A DNA stretch of 64,000 bases from positions 1 to 64,000 of the forward strand of contig JAFVYC010000026.1 of NCBI GenBank assembly GCA_017500855.1, given 5' to 3'. This DNA comes from Clostridia bacterium (GTDB lineage Bacteria > Bacillota > Clostridia > Christensenellales > CAG-314). Positions 2,989-60,137 of this stretch are shown in pieces (the stretch's first letter is position 1; each line of letters begins with the position of its first letter). The notes under the pieces were generated by a model that searched no databases, had not been told where the DNA came from, and worked only from the letters and a program-made list of their open reading frames with translations. Both the position numbers and the translations under genes were made by a program.

Positions 2989-3584
2989 AGAAATACGTTG
3001 GTTTCCTTTTCTATAGATAGCAAAGTGGCAGGCCCGTGTCCGCAAAACACGGTGTAGTCACCTTGAATTTGCTTGATTTTTTGCAAAGAATTCTTCATTG
3101 CAGTTTTGTTGCTTTCGGCAAAATCCGTTCTGCCAATGGAGCCACAAAACAACGTGTCGCCTGCAAACATTTTGTCTTGGCACAAAAGCACAACGGAACC
3201 GTGCGTGTGCCCCGGCGTGTGCAAAACTTCAAACTCAAAACTGCCAACACAAAGTCTGCCTTGCCCATACGTCTTGGTGGGAAAACAGTTTTGGCAAGGC
3301 ACGCCCCAAGGGTTTTGCTGTGCCGTTTTGCACAGTTCAACGTCCTCGACATGCACAAAAACGTCGGCTTTGCCAACTGTTTGTAGCAAATGCTCAACGC
3401 CACCGCAATGGTCGAAATGGCCGTGAGTTAGCAACACTGCTTGCAATTGCAAGTTGTTTTGCAAAATGAAATTTTCTAGCTCTTGTGAAACAAAAGCCAC
3501 GTCCACAACAACACAAGTGTTTTGGTGTTGCAAAACGTAGCAATTTGTTGAAAGAAGCCCTTGTTGAAAGGTGTGAACTATCAT
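2979..3584 (-). CDS. MBL-fold metallo-hydrolase (glyoxalase II-like)
   Basis: This 201-residue cytoplasmic protein carries the metal-binding motif THGHFDH (His54, His56, Asp58, His59), the later HTPGHTHGS histidine and a GDTLF motif with a metal-bridging Asp. The length and motif order fit the hydroxyacylglutathione hydrolase-like subgroup, which acts on thioesters. The actual substrate cannot be read from the sequence. Its ATG overlaps the relA stop codon (ATGA), which indicates translational coupling. The relA-MBL-hemZ order is common in Clostridia. Confidence 0.88.
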   Translation of the reverse strand: MIVHTFQQGLLSTNCYVLQHQNTCVVVDVAFVSQELENFILQNNLQLQAVLLTHGHFDHCGGVEHLLQTVGKADVFVHVEDVELCKTAQQNPWGVPCQNCFPTKTYGQGRLCVGSFEFEVLHTPGHTHGSVVLLCQDKMFAGDTLFCGSIGRTDFAESNKTAMKNSLQKIKQIQGDYTVFCGHGPATLLSIEKETNVFLCH

Positions 3585-5764
3585 TGATGTGTGCGGTAAA
3601 CGTTGATGACTGCAGGAATAGACTTGATTTTGTTCATCAATTGGTTGACTTGATCGTGGTTGGAGATTTCTATTGTGACTTGCGCAATGGCGTTGCCACG
3701 CTTGTCCTTGCGGGCGTTGATAGCCATCAAAGGCAAACCTTCGTTGGCAATTGTTTTGGTTATTTCAGCAAAAATGTCGCCACGGTCTTCGGAAACAATT
3801 TCGATGGAAACGGGGAAATTGGTGTTGCCGTCGATTGCCGTCCACTCTGCCACCACCAAACGTTCCTTTTCCAACGTTTTGACAGCGGGGCAGTCGGCAC
3901 GATGCACGCAAACGCCACGACCACGAGAAATGTAGCCAACAATTTCGTCCCCGGGAACGGGACTGCAACAGCGAGAGAAACGCACGAGCAAATCTTCCAC
4001 GCCCTTGATGATGACGGTTTTTTCCTTGTTGTTGCCTGCCTTGGGGCGATGAACAACTTGTTGCGTTTTTTGGTTGGCAACCTTGCTTGCCGACATCAAC
4101 TTGTACACAACTTGGTTCAAAGAAATGCTTCCATAGCCAATGGATGCAAACATTTCGTCCACGTCGTTGAACAAGTAGCGTTCGCAAGTTGCCTTGATTG
4201 CTTCGGGAGTGAGCAAATCCGATGGAGAAAATCCACGGTGCTTTGCTTCCCTTTCCACCATGGAACGGCCTGTGCGAATGTACTCTTCCTTGAGTTCCTT
4301 CTTGAAGAATTGGCGAATTTTGCTCTTTGCAGATGCAGTTTTTACAATTTTTAGCCAATCTCGGGATGGGCCCTTGGCGTTGACACTGGTCATTACTTCC
4401 ACAGTGTCGCCCGTTTTGAGTTCCGTGTCCAAAGGCACGATTTTGTTGTTGACTTTTGTGCCAACGCACCTGTTGCCAACTTGGCTGTGAACTGCGTAGG
4501 CAAAGTCCAAAACCGTTGCGCCTGCAGGCAAACTCTTTACGTCGCCGTTTGGTGTGAAAACGTACACTTCGTTGGTGTTGGAAATGTCCTTGCGAATCAA
4601 ATCCAAAAACTCGCTACTGTCCTTGAAGTCGTCGTCGTAGGACAGCACTTCCTTTACCCAACCAAGTTTTGCATCCATGTCGGATTGCTGGGTAATGCCT
4701 TCCTTATACTTCCAGTGCGCTGCAACACCGTACTCGGCAATTTTGTGCATTTCGTGAGTGCGAATTTGCACTTCAATTGGGTAGTTGTGCCCTTCGTGGT
4801 TGATGAAAACCGTTGTGTGCAACGATTGGTACATGTTTGGTTTGGGAACGGCAATGTAGTCCTTGAAACGGCCCGGCATTGGCTTCCACACGGCGTGAAT
4901 TGCGCCAAGCGCTGCGTAGCAATCCTTGATTGTGTCAACGATAACACGCACGGCTGTCAAGTCGTAGACTTGATCCAAGGTTTTGTTTTGCCTTGTCATC
5001 TTTTTGTAGATGGAATAGAAGTGCTTTGTTCTGCCGTAGATGTCGAAATCGGTAATTTTTGCCCTGCCAAGTTCGGCTTTTACGTCGGCAATGAAGTCGT
5101 CTACAATGGCTTGTCTTTCCGGACGTTTCAAAGCAATACCGCTGGAAATGTGGTCGTAGGCAGGTCTGTCCAAGTACTTCAAGCACAAGTCTTCCAACTC
5201 ACTCTTTACAGGGGAAATACCAAGCCTGCCTGCAATGGGCGCAAAAATGTCTAAAGTTTCCTTGGCAATGACTTTTTGCTTTTCTTCCGACAAGTACTGC
5301 AAAGAGCGCATGTTGTGAAGCCTGTCGGCAAGTTTGATCATCATGACACGGATGTCTTTTGCCATGGCAAAAAACATTTTGCGCATGTTTTCCGCTTGCT
5401 CTTCTTCCTTGCTGTGGAACTTGATTTTGTCCAGTTTTGTAACGCCGGACACAAGAATGGCAATTTCTTCGCCAAACTTTTTGCTGATGTCGTCGTTTGT
5501 GATGTAGGTGTCTTCCACCGTGTCGTGCAAAAGCGCAGCGCAAATGGTAGACACGTCAAAGCCCATGTCAATAAGAATGTCGGCAACGGTTGTTGGGTGC
5601 GTGATGTAGGCACGACCACTTGCCCTGAATTGCCCTTGATGCGCCTCGTTTGCAAGGTTGAAAGCGCTTTCTATTTTGTTTACTTCGGATGCGTGGTAGT
5701 AGTGCCTTACTTTTGACAAAAAGTTGGCAATGGTTACCTCGGCTTTTTCCTTTTCGTTACTCAT
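3581..5764 (-). CDS. relA: Bifunctional (p)ppGpp synthase/hydrolase (Rel/SpoT)
   Basis: This 727-residue long RSH protein has an HD hydrolase domain (His56 and the HDTVEDT motif at about 80-86). A synthetase domain follows with GRFKDYIAVPKPN and EVQIRTHEMH, which retains the catalytic Glu. Then come a TGS domain (VFTPNGDVKSLP, about 400-460), a Cys-containing region RFSRCCSPVPGDEI near 600, and a C-terminal ACT domain. Both active sites look intact, so it should make and degrade the stringent alarmone in response to ribosome status. An AAGGTG element lies 4 nt before the ATG. It follows recJ closely and overlaps the MBL gene. Confidence 0.97.
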   Translation of the reverse strand: MSNEKEKAEVTIANFLSKVRHYYHASEVNKIESAFNLANEAHQGQFRASGRAYITHPTTVADILIDMGFDVSTICAALLHDTVEDTYITNDDISKKFGEEIAILVSGVTKLDKIKFHSKEEEQAENMRKMFFAMAKDIRVMMIKLADRLHNMRSLQYLSEEKQKVIAKETLDIFAPIAGRLGISPVKSELEDLCLKYLDRPAYDHISSGIALKRPERQAIVDDFIADVKAELGRAKITDFDIYGRTKHFYSIYKKMTRQNKTLDQVYDLTAVRVIVDTIKDCYAALGAIHAVWKPMPGRFKDYIAVPKPNMYQSLHTTVFINHEGHNYPIEVQIRTHEMHKIAEYGVAAHWKYKEGITQQSDMDAKLGWVKEVLSYDDDFKDSSEFLDLIRKDISNTNEVYVFTPNGDVKSLPAGATVLDFAYAVHSQVGNRCVGTKVNNKIVPLDTELKTGDTVEVMTSVNAKGPSRDWLKIVKTASAKSKIRQFFKKELKEEYIRTGRSMVEREAKHRGFSPSDLLTPEAIKATCERYLFNDVDEMFASIGYGSISLNQVVYKLMSASKVANQKTQQVVHRPKAGNNKEKTVIIKGVEDLLVRFSRCCSPVPGDEIVGYISRGRGVCVHRADCPAVKTLEKERLVVAEWTAIDGNTNFPVSIEIVSEDRGDIFAEITKTIANEGLPLMAINARKDKRGNAIAQVTIEISNHDQVNQLMNKIKSIPAVINVYRTHQ

Positions 5765-10505: not shown

Positions 10506-12895
<2,390 letters not shown>

Positions 12896-39938: not shown

Positions 39939-40634
39939 CTACAAAATTTGCGTCAGTTTGTTGCCCACCAAGTCGCAAGAAGTCAAGTAGAAATCCACGC
40001 CAAATTTTTTGAAGTACAAATTTGCTCTGCAATCCTTGCCGTGCAAGTGGCCGTACACCACCGTTAGCACGTCGTTGGCAACAAATTGTTTGGTGAACTC
40101 CGACTCCTCGTAGCGCCCGTTGAATGGCGGAAAATGCATGATTGCAATAACTTTGTCCGTTGGCTTGCGTTGAGCCTTCATTGCCGAAAGGGACAGTTTG
40201 AGGCGCTCCGATTCCCTCAGGTAAATTTTTTTGTCCTCTGCCGAAAGGTTGTTGCCGTCGGGGCAAACCCAACCACGAGTGCCACAGATCAGCACGTCGC
40301 CAAAGCGCAAACAATCGTTTTGCAAAGCAAAAAATCCTTGTGGAATGGATGCACGAACTTGCGAAAGGGTGTTCCACCAGTAGTCGTGGTTGCCACGCAA
40401 AATGACCTTTTTGCCGGGCAGTTGCGCCACTAGTTGGAAGTCGGGCAGGGCCTCTTCCATTCGCATTGCCCAAGAAAAATCTCCGGGCAAAAGCACAAGG
40501 TCATCGTCGGAAACTTTTTCCTTCCAGTCCTTGCAAATCATTTCAAAATAGTTTTCCCAGCTCTTGCCAAAAATGTCCATTGGCTTTTGGCACACGGTGG
40601 ACAAGTGCAAGTCGCTAATAGCAAATACTTTCAT
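39939..40634 (-). CDS. Calcineurin-like metallophosphoesterase
   Basis: This 231-residue cytoplasmic protein has the full set of metallophosphoesterase motifs: SDLHLS, PGDFSW, RGNHDYWW, MHFPP and YGHLHG. It would bind two metals and hydrolyse a phosphoester; the substrate is unknown. The ATG at 40634 gives the canonical MKVFAISDLHLS start; an upstream ATG (40685) adds a non-homologous extension. It follows the small zinc-ribbon gene by about 80 nt and may be co-transcribed with it. Confidence 0.9.
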   Translation of the reverse strand: MKVFAISDLHLSTVCQKPMDIFGKSWENYFEMICKDWKEKVSDDDLVLLPGDFSWAMRMEEALPDFQLVAQLPGKKVILRGNHDYWWNTLSQVRASIPQGFFALQNDCLRFGDVLICGTRGWVCPDGNNLSAEDKKIYLRESERLKLSLSAMKAQRKPTDKVIAIMHFPPFNGRYEESEFTKQFVANDVLTVVYGHLHGKDCRANLYFKKFGVDFYLTSCDLVGNKLTQIL

Positions 40635-40715
40635 ACCACTAGCATACCACAAAAAACGGTTTTTGTCCACAAAAAGTTGCACCACTTGCCCACGGACAGA
40701 AAAATTTGGTTTGTT

Positions 40716-41102: not shown

Positions 41103-41131
41103 TTGACTTGAAGAATTTTGCATAGTAAAAT
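41103..41131 (+). promoter_or_regulatory. Promoter of the giant pseudopilin gene
   Basis: TTGACT (41103-41108), 17 bp, TAAAAT (41126-41131). The leader contains the inverted repeat GTGCG/CGCAC near 41138-41149 just before the SD. This is the first plus-strand unit in the long minus-strand run. Confidence 0.85.
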
Positions 41132-41179
41132 GTTATAGTGCGTTCGCACAAAAAACACTACTTCAAAAAGAGGTTTACT

Positions 41180-43909
41180 ATGCAAAAGAAAAAGCGCAAC
41201 GGTGGTTTCACTTTGGTTGAACTGTTGGTTGTCATTGCAGTGCTTGCTGTACTGGCAACGGTTTCCATTGTGGGCTACACCAGTTTTGTAGAAAAGGCAA
41301 AAGTTTCCGTAGACGTTCAAACGCTTGAACAACTCAATTTGGTGCTTATGGCAAACGAACAAAGTGGCAACGGCGCCCAAAACGTCAAGGATGCCTACAA
41401 CCAAATTTACCAAGCAGGGCTGATGCCAATGTACACGCCACAAGGTAGCAACCTTGGTGTTTGTTGGGATAGCCAAACAAACAGATTTGTTTTGTTCCAA
41501 AGCGGAGCAAACGCAAACCAAGGCAAAATTGTGCACTCCACCGACAGCAAAGTTAGCAACGGAGTGGAAGTTGACGTCAACAACGACAACAGATTTTTTG
41601 TGTACAACGAGCCTGCGCTTTGTCAGCACCAATGGGACGAGGGGCAAATTGTTCAACAACCAACTTGCACCGAACAAGGGCTCAAAACTGAAACTTGCAA
41701 AATTTGCCAAACAACGCAAAACAAACAAGTCGATGCCACAGGCCACAATTGGGACAATGGCACCACTACCACACCACCGACTTGCCAAAGCAACGGAACA
41801 ACAACGTTTTGTTGCACGCAATGTGGCGCAACGGAAACGGAAACAATTGCACCCACAGGTCATAGCGAAGTGGTAGACAACGCTGTTGAAGCAACTTGCA
41901 CATCCACTGGTTTGACTGAAGGCAAGCATTGTTCCGTTTGCAATGAAGTACTTGTTGCTCAACAAGTGATAGGCTTGAAACCGCATACTGAAGAAACCAT
42001 TCCCGCAATTGAGCCCACTTGTACTACTACAGGACTTACTGTTGGCACAAAGTGTTCGGTTTGTGGCGAAACGCTTGTAGCGCAAACTGTTGTAGACGCT
42101 CTAGGTCATACTGAAAGTTCTGTCGTTGTGGAGAACAGCATTGCTCCTCAATGTACAGTTGATGGTTCCTACGATAATGTGATTTACTGTACTGTATGTA
42201 ATATAGAATTGAGCAGAAATACAATAATAGTTGATGCTCTCGGCCATACTGAAGTAATAGACAACGCTGTTGAAGCAACTTGCACCAACACAGGCTTGAC
42301 GGAAGGCAAACATTGTTCCGTTTGCAATGAAGTTCTCGTTGCTCAACAAGTTGTAGATTTGAAACCGCATACTGAACAAAGCCTTCCCGCAGTTGAGCCA
42401 ACTTGTACAAATACGGGACTTACTGTTGGCACAAAGTGTTCGGTTTGTGGCGAAACCCTTGTGGAACAAACAGTTGTAGGCGCTCTAGGTCATACTGAAA
42501 GTTCAGTTGTTGTGGAAAACAGCCTTGCTCCTCAATGTACAGTTGATGGTTCCTACGACAATGTGATTTACTGTACTGTATGTAATATAGAATTGAGCAG
42601 AAATACAATAATAGTTGATGCTCTCGGCCACACCGAAGTAATAGACAGCGCTGTTGAAGCAACTTGCACATCCACAGGTTTGACGGAAGGAAAACACTGC
42701 TCCGTTTGTGAAGAAGTTCTCGTTGCTCAACAAGTAGTAGACAAGAAAGCACACACAGAAGAAACCATTCCCGCAGTTGAGCCAACTTGTACAAATACGG
42801 GACTTACTGTTGGCACAAAGTGTTCGGTTTGTGAAGAAATCCTTGTGGCGCAACAAGTTGTTGAAACTGTCGACCACAATATTGTTGATGGCAAGTGTTC
42901 CTACTGTGGTTTGCAAGTGGTAACCAAAACGTTTAGTGTGTACAGCGCAGATGCAGTGACCGTAGAAAATGGAACCTACACCACCAACTACGCTTCACAT
43001 ACTTCTACAAATAGCGACAGCATGTGGTACGCACTGACAACGAATCCCGACGCAGTTGTTTACAGACTCAACTCCAATGTTGAGAAGATGGACTTCTCAC
43101 AATTTTTCATTGCTGATGAACTTGCTGGCGACACCATCTACATCGACTTGAACGGTTGCACAATAGCAGGAGCAATCACTCTTTCGGCAAGTAACGTCAC
43201 TCTGTACGTTTTCGACAGTTCGGCAACAAAAGGCAAGGTTGGAAGCATCAACGTTGGAACTAGCGGTCAATTGTTTGTTTGGGACGTGGAAATTTCCAAC
43301 AGCAACAATAAGAGTGGTATCACGTCCAAAGGTGTTGACGTCACAATGTATAGCGGAAGTATTCATGGATGCTACTCGGAAATGGGTGGCGGAATCTACG
43401 CAAAGGACGCAAGTGTGTACATGTGGGGTGGAGAAATCTACAACAACGTTTCGTTTGGCGACGGTGGCGGAATTTTCATCACAGGAACAGAGCAAGAATT
43501 TGTGATGAAAGGTGGCCACATCTACGGAAACAGAGCAAATAACGGCGGTGGCATGAAAGTGAAAGGTAACGTCACAATTGACGGAGGAACAATTTCCGGC
43601 AACGTTGCACAAGGTCCAAATGGAAATGGCGGTGGTATATACCACTTTGGTGGAACTCTCACAATCAACGGTGGCACGATTGGTGGCGCAAACCCCTACA
43701 CACAAACAGGCGATGCAAAAACAATGGCAAACAGTGCGCAATCTCAAGGTGCGGAAATAATCTCGGAAAAGGATATAGTTATCAACAACGGCACCGTGTA
43801 CTTGCACGACTACGATCCACCATATAGCATCATCCACTATGGAACATTCAGCCACACAGGAAACCCATTTGTATGTCAATACCCTTACGATATGTACATT
43901 TCAAAATAA
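41180..43909 (+). CDS. Giant type IV pseudopilin with CxxC repeats and a beta-helix-like C-terminus
   Basis: This 909-residue protein starts with a class III signal (basic leader ending GG, cleavage before FTLVELL, Glu at position +5) and a hydrophobic helix (10-32), so a prepilin peptidase should process it. A pilin-like head follows (to about 150). Residues 156-578 hold about ten repeats of roughly 42 residues, each with one Cys, a CxxC pair and often a GH or PH. From about 580 the sequence becomes a beta-helix-like domain with GGGIY, GGEIYNN and NGGTI repeats. Typical pilins are 130-200 residues. Surface adhesion at a pilus tip is inferred. SD AGAGG fixes ATG 41180. Confidence 0.88.
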   Translation: MQKKKRNGGFTLVELLVVIAVLAVLATVSIVGYTSFVEKAKVSVDVQTLEQLNLVLMANEQSGNGAQNVKDAYNQIYQAGLMPMYTPQGSNLGVCWDSQTNRFVLFQSGANANQGKIVHSTDSKVSNGVEVDVNNDNRFFVYNEPALCQHQWDEGQIVQQPTCTEQGLKTETCKICQTTQNKQVDATGHNWDNGTTTTPPTCQSNGTTTFCCTQCGATETETIAPTGHSEVVDNAVEATCTSTGLTEGKHCSVCNEVLVAQQVIGLKPHTEETIPAIEPTCTTTGLTVGTKCSVCGETLVAQTVVDALGHTESSVVVENSIAPQCTVDGSYDNVIYCTVCNIELSRNTIIVDALGHTEVIDNAVEATCTNTGLTEGKHCSVCNEVLVAQQVVDLKPHTEQSLPAVEPTCTNTGLTVGTKCSVCGETLVEQTVVGALGHTESSVVVENSLAPQCTVDGSYDNVIYCTVCNIELSRNTIIVDALGHTEVIDSAVEATCTSTGLTEGKHCSVCEEVLVAQQVVDKKAHTEETIPAVEPTCTNTGLTVGTKCSVCEEILVAQQVVETVDHNIVDGKCSYCGLQVVTKTFSVYSADAVTVENGTYTTNYASHTSTNSDSMWYALTTNPDAVVYRLNSNVEKMDFSQFFIADELAGDTIYIDLNGCTIAGAITLSASNVTLYVFDSSATKGKVGSINVGTSGQLFVWDVEISNSNNKSGITSKGVDVTMYSGSIHGCYSEMGGGIYAKDASVYMWGGEIYNNVSFGDGGGIFITGTEQEFVMKGGHIYGNRANNGGGMKVKGNVTIDGGTISGNVAQGPNGNGGGIYHFGGTLTINGGTIGGANPYTQTGDAKTMANSAQSQGAEIISEKDIVINNGTVYLHDYDPPYSIIHYGTFSHTGNPFVCQYPYDMYISK
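41866..42880 (+). repeat. 384-bp coding tandem repeat (2 full copies and a partial third)
   Basis: The same word (GACAACGCTGTTGAAG, or one base different) occurs at 41876, 42260 and 42644, exactly 384 bp (128 codons) apart. Each unit encodes three different CxxC repeats in the order A-B-C, and the third copy stops after A-B. High DNA identity between copies points to recent unequal recombination. Confidence 0.9.
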
Positions 43910-44146: not shown

Positions 44147-44791
44147 CTAGTTTGTTCCACCACCGTTTGTTGTGCGACAACTGCCCGGGTACAGTGGCAA
44201 CTCGAAGTAGCCGGAACATACTTCCTCGGTGTACTCTTGGCAGGGTGGAATCATTGCATAGCCATAGGTTGGCACAATCAGTTCCACGTCCATTGTTACC
44301 TTGAGAATGGCAGTCACACAGCAGTTTACAATGAAAATGTAGTAGGTCACACCGTCGATGACTGTTGTTTGGCTGTAGTTGCCTTCCGGGCTGACTGCCG
44401 ACACGCTTGCTTCAATGCGATAGGGAATGATTGAAGGTTCGGGCAGGAACATGACAACGTCCACGGGAACGGTCACGGTGCCGGTGCCACTACCTTCGTT
44501 GTTTTCCGCATCCAAATATGTAACTTCCACAGGAACGACAATGTCGGCTTGCACCCTGCCGTACTTGGGGCGTTCGGGCAAGCGTTCCACAACCAAGTTT
44601 TCCACCATGCCAACTGTCGTTGTGCTTTTTGCGCTTACAAAACGCAACGGAACAACGGGGCCTGTTGGCGTGACGTCGGAAATGCTGATTGCCACTTGCT
44701 GAAGCGTTGTTTGCTTCATGCAGGCATCGAACACCTTTTTGCCTTGAATACAAATTTTTTCTGTACAACCATCCATATTGTTTACTGGCAT
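44147..44791 (-). CDS. Unrecognised Cys-bearing protein, possibly spore-surface related
   Basis: This 214-residue protein lacks a signal peptide. Its N-terminus has DGCTEKICIQGKKVFDACMKQ-type spacing of Cys residues, a pattern I associate with uncharacterised clostridial proteins that begin with a C...KVFD.C motif. The rest is beta-rich with SVSAVSPEG and a C-terminal Cys cluster (PPCQEYTEEVC, PGSC). The start at 44791 has AGGAGG 5 nt upstream; the frame opens further up at 44887. It follows a TetR gene after a terminator. No function is assigned. Confidence 0.7.
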   Translation of the reverse strand: MPVNNMDGCTEKICIQGKKVFDACMKQTTLQQVAISISDVTPTGPVVPLRFVSAKSTTTVGMVENLVVERLPERPKYGRVQADIVVPVEVTYLDAENNEGSGTGTVTVPVDVVMFLPEPSIIPYRIEASVSAVSPEGNYSQTTVIDGVTYYIFIVNCCVTAILKVTMDVELIVPTYGYAMIPPCQEYTEEVCSGYFELPLYPGSCRTTNGGGTN

Positions 44792-44851
44792 TTTTACCTC
44801 CTTGGGATACTTGCTATATTGTATGCCAAGGGTGGCAAAAATGTGTGCAAC

Positions 44852-44880
44852 AAAAAAAATCCCACGAAAACCGTGGGATT
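44852..44880 (-). terminator. Terminator after the TetR gene
   Basis: An 8-9 bp stem (AATCCCACG with CGTGGGATT) and 5-nt loop, followed by a T run on the minus strand, about 20 nt after the tetR stop. Confidence 0.9.
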
Positions 44881-44900
44881 GTTGCAAAATTGCACTACTG

Positions 44901-47326: not shown

Positions 47327-47341
47327 ATAGATAGAATAAAT

Positions 47342-47549
47342 ATCCGGTAGGTGAGGCTACCACAGGGATAAGGGTTGCTACCGACAAATCGTGGAGACAC
47401 GTCAGGTCAGGTTAGCAGGCAATGTCGAAACCAAGGCATTACCTAACGCAATTTCATCGCCCTGTGATGCTAAAGCTTGTAATGGTAGGCGACGGTACCG
47501 TCGTGACTTTGTATCGTAGTCTGCGCTGTTACAAGCGTGGGCTTTTTTT
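47342..47549 (+). promoter_or_regulatory. M-box magnesium riboswitch with terminator, upstream of mgtE
   Basis: The motifs GGTAGGTGAGGCTACC, CAGGGATA, GGTTGCTACCG and GATGCTAAAGCT follow the M-box (ykoK leader) pattern in order. The terminator pairs GCTTGTAA (47475-47482) with TTACAAGC (47529-47536), then TTTTTTT. High magnesium should fold the aptamer and end transcription before mgtE. Confidence 0.93.
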
Positions 47550-59969: not shown

Positions 59970-60137
59970 TCCATTGCGAAAGCGATGGCATATCATCACG
60001 CTTTAGCGTGTATATCATCGCCGCAGGCGTATATCATCAACCGCAGGTTGTATCGCTTTCGCAATGATGATATACAATGCTTCGCATTGATGATATTCCG
60101 CAACAAGTTGCGGATGATATACAAGGCCTTGCCTTGA
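59970..60137. repeat. Array of short palindromic hairpins separated by ATATCATC/GATGATAT
   Basis: At least seven short hairpins follow one another, such as CATTGCGAAAGCGATG, CGCTTTAGCG, CAACCGCAGGTTG, CAATGCTTCGCATTG, CCGCAACAAGTTGCGG and CAAGGCCTTGCCTTG. Linkers read ATATCATC in the left half and GATGATAT in the right half, so the whole array is itself an inverted repeat around about 60055. The stems differ in sequence. This looks like a REP-like or MITE-like dispersed element. Confidence 0.85.

Follow-up and report, generated by a model that had tools for sequence, protein, structure and literature searches.

Within the window, as we call the whole 64,000-nucleotide stretch of clostridial DNA that was analysed, positions 41180–43909 of the forward strand (+) hold an intact open reading frame of 909 amino acids, which starts with ATG and has no internal stop. 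An AGAGG ribosome-binding site lies upstream of it, and a putative sigma-70-type promoter, TTGACT-N17-TAAAAT, is recognised at 41103–41131 (+) purely by its match to the consensus (score 10/12, 17-bp spacing). The gene is solitary: its neighbours, 39939–40685 and 44147–44887, are both on the opposite strand, and the pilus gene cluster of the genome is located elsewhere. Neither a c-di-GMP riboswitch nor any other known riboswitch reached the gathering score 5' of the pilins in the regions scanned; the scan of these regions gave only tRNA, Gut-1, THF and M-box elements, which are unrelated to the giant pilin gene. The window contains an M-box (Mg) riboswitch at 47336–47497 (+; 99.7 bits). Judged from its translation, the solitary gene encodes a very large modular pilus-type protein composed of a pilin stem, a stalk of ten Cys/His units and a beta-rich head.

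The protein begins with MQKKKRNGG (41180–41206, +), a class III prepilin leader with a predicted cut after Gly9, followed by FTLVELLVVIAVLAVLATVSIV. The RNGG/FTLVELLVVIAVLAVLATVSIV junction has the features by which such signals are recognised: a hydrophilic leader ending in Gly or Ala (here Gly at −1), Phe or Met at +1 (here Phe), Glu at +5 and a stretch of about 20 hydrophobic residues. The protein matches Pfam N_methyl with an E-value of 4.7e-8 and 32.7 bits (cut-off 21.2), and TIGR02532 above its cut-off. The same prepilin-peptidase motif is present in 22 paralogues, and all 23 N_methyl proteins of the genome score above the curated threshold. An ordinary Sec signal, to be revealed by homologues, had been named at the outset as a possible refutation; for the window protein it is ruled out by the two family matches and by the motif in the paralogues. 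Together with the alignment of the paralogues, these results bear out the class III signal and the pilin stem that had originally been predicted from this DNA.

Behind the leader, the pilin module (residues 10 to ~115; 41207–41524, +) consists of the hydrophobic helix alpha-1 and a small domain. The module aligns over residues ~1–110 (~105 amino acids) with the majority of the large pilins encoded elsewhere in the genome (E-values of 1e-13 to 1e-21), and all PDB sequence matches of the window protein are type IV pilins, aligned over the stem. A low-confidence model places helices at residues 12–37, 46–57 and 65–78 and strands at residues 92–97 and 102–107 of the stem region. The stem is conserved among the paralogues and a separate large module stands behind it, which is the pattern of a modular pilin. 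Since the same stem occurs 18 times before differing large C-terminal parts, chance is no explanation for this architecture.

The stalk occupies residues ~148–580 (~430 amino acids; 41621–42916, +). It is composed of ten complete C-x9-11-CxxC-x12-15-H units of 39–49 amino acids each and a terminal half unit, and thus the long CxxC stalk of the original prediction is confirmed. The Cys, the CxxC and the His are found in all ten units at near-fixed spacing, and the DNA of the stalk contains a 384-bp higher-order repeat (2.6 copies, 89% match). In an alignment of 76 stalk fragments, Cys, Gly, Cys, Cys and His are at least 90% conserved. The AlphaFold2 model of three units, built with these 76 aligned fragments, is all-beta with a pLDDT of 97 and a pTM of 0.61, the placement of the units relative to one another being uncertain.

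A PDB fold search with the three-unit model gave no match at E ≤ 0.001, and a PDB sequence search with the stalk gave no significant match. The VIA list for the stalk model is topped by the elongated G5-E stalks of staphylococcal Aap and SasG, with Z-scores of 4–4.7 and rmsd values of 4–8, a match too weak to support any claim. As elongated beta modules, these best structural neighbours are similar in kind to the stalk, and several of the matched PDB entries name Zn-dependent adhesion in their titles. However, no sequence similarity was found, to our knowledge there is no Cys in the G5/E scheme, and we do not claim that the stalk is a member of this group.

The stalk repeat is not confined to pilins. 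At least three lipoprotein-like open reading frames of the same genome carry this repeat closely behind the lipobox, and MAGs of other Clostridia have it in surface proteins of the Sec or LRR type. Because the same repeat stands on lipoproteins as well as on Sec-type and LRR surface proteins, it seems to be an all-purpose stalk for mounting on different anchors. In three lipoprotein-like frames (L066, L067 and L020; on contig C32, at C16:64001–82000 and on contig C31, respectively), CxxC repeats begin soon after the lipobox Cys and the C-terminal parts differ.

The C-terminal head (residues ~586–909, ~320 amino acids; 42935–43906, +) is beta-rich, with recurrent GGG(I/M) and NGGT/GGTI motifs. 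A profile search gave no Pfam match for this part, and the C-terminal 324 residues have no significant match to any other pilin of the genome. In the single-sequence model, the head shows regular short strands with pLDDT values of ~50–73; the full-length model of this type has a mean pLDDT of 37.8 and offers hints only. The best rows of the Foldseek list for the head are mostly beta-helices, all with E > 0.5 (0.6 or worse). The beta-helix tip that had been proposed thus holds as far as a beta-rich C-terminal end is concerned; in view of the missing Pfam match and the low confidence of the single-sequence model, the parallel beta-helix itself is likely but not proven.

A genome lacking pilus assembly genes had likewise been named at the outset as a refutation. 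The genome, G000, is probably that of a gut bacterium; its assembly comprises 1.52 Mb in 41 contigs and is 92% complete. A single cluster on contig C27 encodes PilB, PilC and PilD as well as two small pilins, and PF01478, PF00482 and PF00437 are all matched over cut-off there. The window itself encodes a PilT/PilU-type pilus retraction ATPase at 11633–12895 (−), which matches TIGR01420 over cut-off (E = 2.5e-118) as well as PF00437 and has tgt, queA, ruvB, ruvA and ruvC nearby. An absence of pilus genes from the genome is ruled out by the C27 cluster and by PilT. No match to the sortase family PF04203 was found in the whole of G000 at its 92% completeness, and cell-wall sorting seems to be absent from this genome.

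By length, the 23 N_methyl proteins divide into 18 of 308–1532 residues and five of 117–164 residues. CxxC motifs are present in four pilins of the set. Pfam recognises a right-handed Beta_helix head in two of its members and a BspA-type LRR head in one. In a 1139-residue pilin, L065:4855–8274 (−), leucine-rich repeats of the BspA type make up the body (LRR_5, E = 2.4e-202).

We surveyed 61 genomes, namely G000 and 60 relatives. Any N_methyl protein is found in 12 of the 61, with G000 highest at 23 and the next genome at 12, and 21 of 24 congeners have none. Giant pilins of 444–1550 residues are present in seven relatives from the genus, family or order (G002, G004, G011, G026, G032, G034 and G052). 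One in G034 (L114:1902–6395, 1497 amino acids) bears, on a pilin stem, seven CxxC motifs along with CBM26 (five stretches) and CBM25 (two stretches), and is possibly starch-binding. L114 shows that stems of this kind do carry ligand-binding modules, and its CBM stretches are the best hint that the heads of giant pilins may bind ligands such as polysaccharides. A search of 11 pilin-bearing relatives yielded no full-length orthologue of the window protein.

Aligned leaders of ten large pilins revealed a conserved site, CACATAATGTATATTATGT. A whole-genome search allowing ≤3 mismatches gave 20 forward and 17 reverse matches; the reversed pattern, run as a control, gave 2 and 1, respectively. Because the site is almost a palindrome, many places are counted on both strands. 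Intact inverted pairs are found at nine loci, with arms that are 190–266 bp apart and perfect over 12 to 25 nt, and all nine are situated upstream of a pilin gene. Three further loci are interrupted by contig ends (C1, C4 and C40). Together, the twelve loci could control 13 pilins; a 970-residue CxxC pilin, which sits 111 bp downstream of a switched pilin, would be the fourteenth if the two are co-transcribed. Eleven segments show a promoter: ten contain one near-consensus TTGACA promoter, and the segment 5' of the 383-residue pilin of L060 has a weaker one with 18-bp spacing. Seven of these promoters are directed toward the pilin and three away from it, and the remaining one lies between divergent short pilins and is directed toward one of them. 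At L050 (C31:106000–114000), two divergent short pilins, 3298–3669 (−) and 4442–4795 (+), are separated by a 22-nt inverted-repeat pair with one promoter, an arrangement that has the appearance of an either/or switch, possibly of the major pilin.

The assembly contains evidence for both orientations. Contigs C2 and C4 start with 141 identical bases, comprising promoter and repeat, and then diverge, C4 into the pilin operon and C2 into a different flank; no other pair of segments shares even 30 exact bases. We infer that this fork represents one segment present in both orientations, as a k-mer assembler would leave it. The right end of contig C16 consists of 90 nt that repeat the contig's own gene-side flank perfectly in inverted orientation. 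Inverted repeats of 16, 31 and 16 nt are also found at about −240 and −85 before pilins of ~1500 residues in three congeners, and all three segments contain a TTGACT-type −35/−10 pair with 17-bp spacing, directed away from the pilin. The repeat sequence at these congener loci (L120, L122 and L124 in G002, G011 and G004, respectively) is unlike that of G000. A genome search for a serine recombinase as invertase found none; two tyrosine recombinases are candidate invertases, neither of them linked to a switch.

A hydrophobic open reading frame of ~159 amino acids (MNMYV...YKRILYLRLCRLNS) is located ~140–250 bp upstream of nine switched giant pilins (L052–L059 and L063). It has no Pfam match and is present in none of 40 other genomes of the family, and a conserved hairpin-like sequence, GTTGGCACGGCTTGCCAAC, lies between it and the giant pilin. 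Three copies of a 28-nt GC-rich repeat (TGTAGGGACCGGCGTCCCCGACGGTCCG and its complement) stand in alternating orientation ~660–1260 bp upstream of the 383-residue pilin of L060.

The window gene is without the CACATAATGTATATTATGT switch of its paralogues, as no such site is found anywhere in the window at ≤3 mismatches. It has an inverted repeat of its own, a perfect 14-bp pair whose left arm, TTTTGCATAGTAAA (41116–41129), overlaps the −10 box and whose right arm, TTTACTATGCAAAA (41174–41187), overlaps the start codon; the 44 bp between the arms include the ribosome-binding site. The only other repeat in the window of at least 14 nt with a spacer of 20–300 bp is a perfect 15-nt pair, CATTGCGAAAGCGAT, with a 65-bp spacer at 59972–60066. 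Phase variation of the window gene by inversion of the 44-bp segment would be in line with the switches of paralogues and congeners. About 0.4% of intergenic sequences generated with a first-order Markov model contain a perfect repeat of this type, and a flip would alter the −10 box at its final two positions, turning TAAAAT into TAAACC, and remove AGAGG. However, the repeat is unlike the sequence common to the other switches, its spacer is far shorter than theirs and the contig is unbroken at 41116–41187; a regulator-binding dyad would look identical and is equally possible. We therefore consider a switch of this kind at the window gene distinctly unlikely.

The window protein is, in our judgement, probably a PilD-processed modular type IV pilin that carries its stalked head on or with the pilus. 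PilD would remove the leader and the PilB/PilC machine would carry the alpha-1 helix, so that the small pilin module would act as the carrier for the ~430-residue stalk and the beta-rich, probably beta-helical head, which could meet a ligand beyond the cell wall. The 18 giant pilins would have a common carrier and different heads, and one pilus machine could display these different heads; at least 13 pilins lie behind invertible-type promoter segments, and the window gene would do without such a segment or use another switch. We infer that the protein may serve as a pilus-tip adhesin, the role given to it at the outset. For a subunit of 909 residues, however, a position other than the tip is difficult to envisage, and one tip cannot hold 18 giant pilins at once; some of them may therefore remain membrane-anchored surface proteins. 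If this applied to the window protein, it would be an unpolymerised, stalked pseudopilin whose class III segment is a processed signal anchor only. The identical type of stalk directly behind the lipobox in other proteins suggests that the stem may be just another anchor, the lack of a sortase match calls for another anchoring route, and 18 giant pilins face a single PilB/PilC set. Against this, the pilin module is ~105 residues long and conserved across the paralogues, which exceeds the needs of an anchor, and PilB, PilC, PilD and PilT are all present; we thus regard an anchor function alone as rather unlikely. The modular pilin that we favour has further points against it in the head, which has no Pfam match and a poor model, and in the absence of a full-length orthologue from the relatives searched.

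The stability of the stalk allows a similar choice. Each unit has four conserved potential ligands (the Cys, the CxxC and the His), as expected for a zinc-binding repeat, and binding of a metal by the repeats, as had been suggested originally, is plausible. As a unit contains three Cys beside its one His, pairing through disulfides alone would always leave one Cys over, and each unit is therefore most likely to bind one metal ion, probably zinc, through a Cys3His site. The unit would be a small all-beta module held together by this ion. Cys pairs are common in extracytoplasmic proteins, to which the window protein belongs, and a CxxC is able to form a disulfide. However, the presence of three Cys in all ten units implies an odd one in each, and the His is conserved as strongly as the Cys, which makes stabilisation by disulfides instead of metal doubtful.

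The claim that the protein is of an undescribed type does not hold, as modular pilins with grafted functional modules have already been described, with more than 1,200 proteins and 264 architectures (PMC8179133). PilB and PilC of Streptococcus sanguinis, the former being the model for this kind of pilin, likewise combine a class III signal with a small pilin module that bears a large unrelated module, in PilB (454 residues when processed) a vWA adhesion module (PMC8179133). In contrast to these, the window protein has 909 residues, with a ten-unit Cys/His stalk separating the stem from the head; the small genome encodes 18 giant pilins in all, and invertible-type promoters precede most of the paralogues. 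The module of the window protein has no Pfam match; Beta_helix, LRR_5 and CBM26 are found in other giant pilins. ComZ, CofB and TcpB belong to transformation or T4b systems with one or few such subunits, for which we know of no Cys/His repeat stalk and no paralogue set. ComZ of Thermus is a pilin with a beta-solenoid module, and CofB and TcpB have been proposed to be located at the pilus tip (PMC8179133).

Promoter inversion has been described for type 1 fimbriae, capsules, Clostridioides difficile pdcB/pdcC and gut invertons (PMC11868660, PMC11892184). As in those systems, inverted repeats flank one promoter, whose flip would turn expression on or off, often of surface structures; here, by contrast, a whole giant type IV pilin set is placed under one repeat family. 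Phase variation of pilin by DNA inversion is known from Moraxella bovis (PMC11868660), which inverts pilin genes, whereas here only short promoter segments are involved. In a literature search of open-licence papers, no promoter-inversion repertoire of giant type IV pilins was found to be described. The unusual aspect is the context, an expanded and largely phase-switchable repertoire of giant pilins, and not the extra modules on a pilin stem.

Modular pilins have been proposed as the answer to an open question, namely how pili of rather simple build can fulfil such a variety of functions (PMC8179133). As a tentative proposal, which we hold to be possible but somewhat short of probable, type IV pilins may be the main, sortase-free form of surface display in this lineage: one machine would present ~18 giant stems with interchangeable heads, and DNA inversion would pick those shown per cell, including an either/or choice between two short pilins that may be the major ones. 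In this scheme, the window protein would be a member with a metal-stiffened stalk, and this stalk offers a testable metal-binding unit that is used on pilins and lipoproteins alike. With 18 giant pilins served by a single machine and the majority of them under promoters that can flip, a genome of 1.5 Mb would offer a natural setting in which to ask whether cells exchange pilus heads one at a time, much as Bacteroides does with its capsules.
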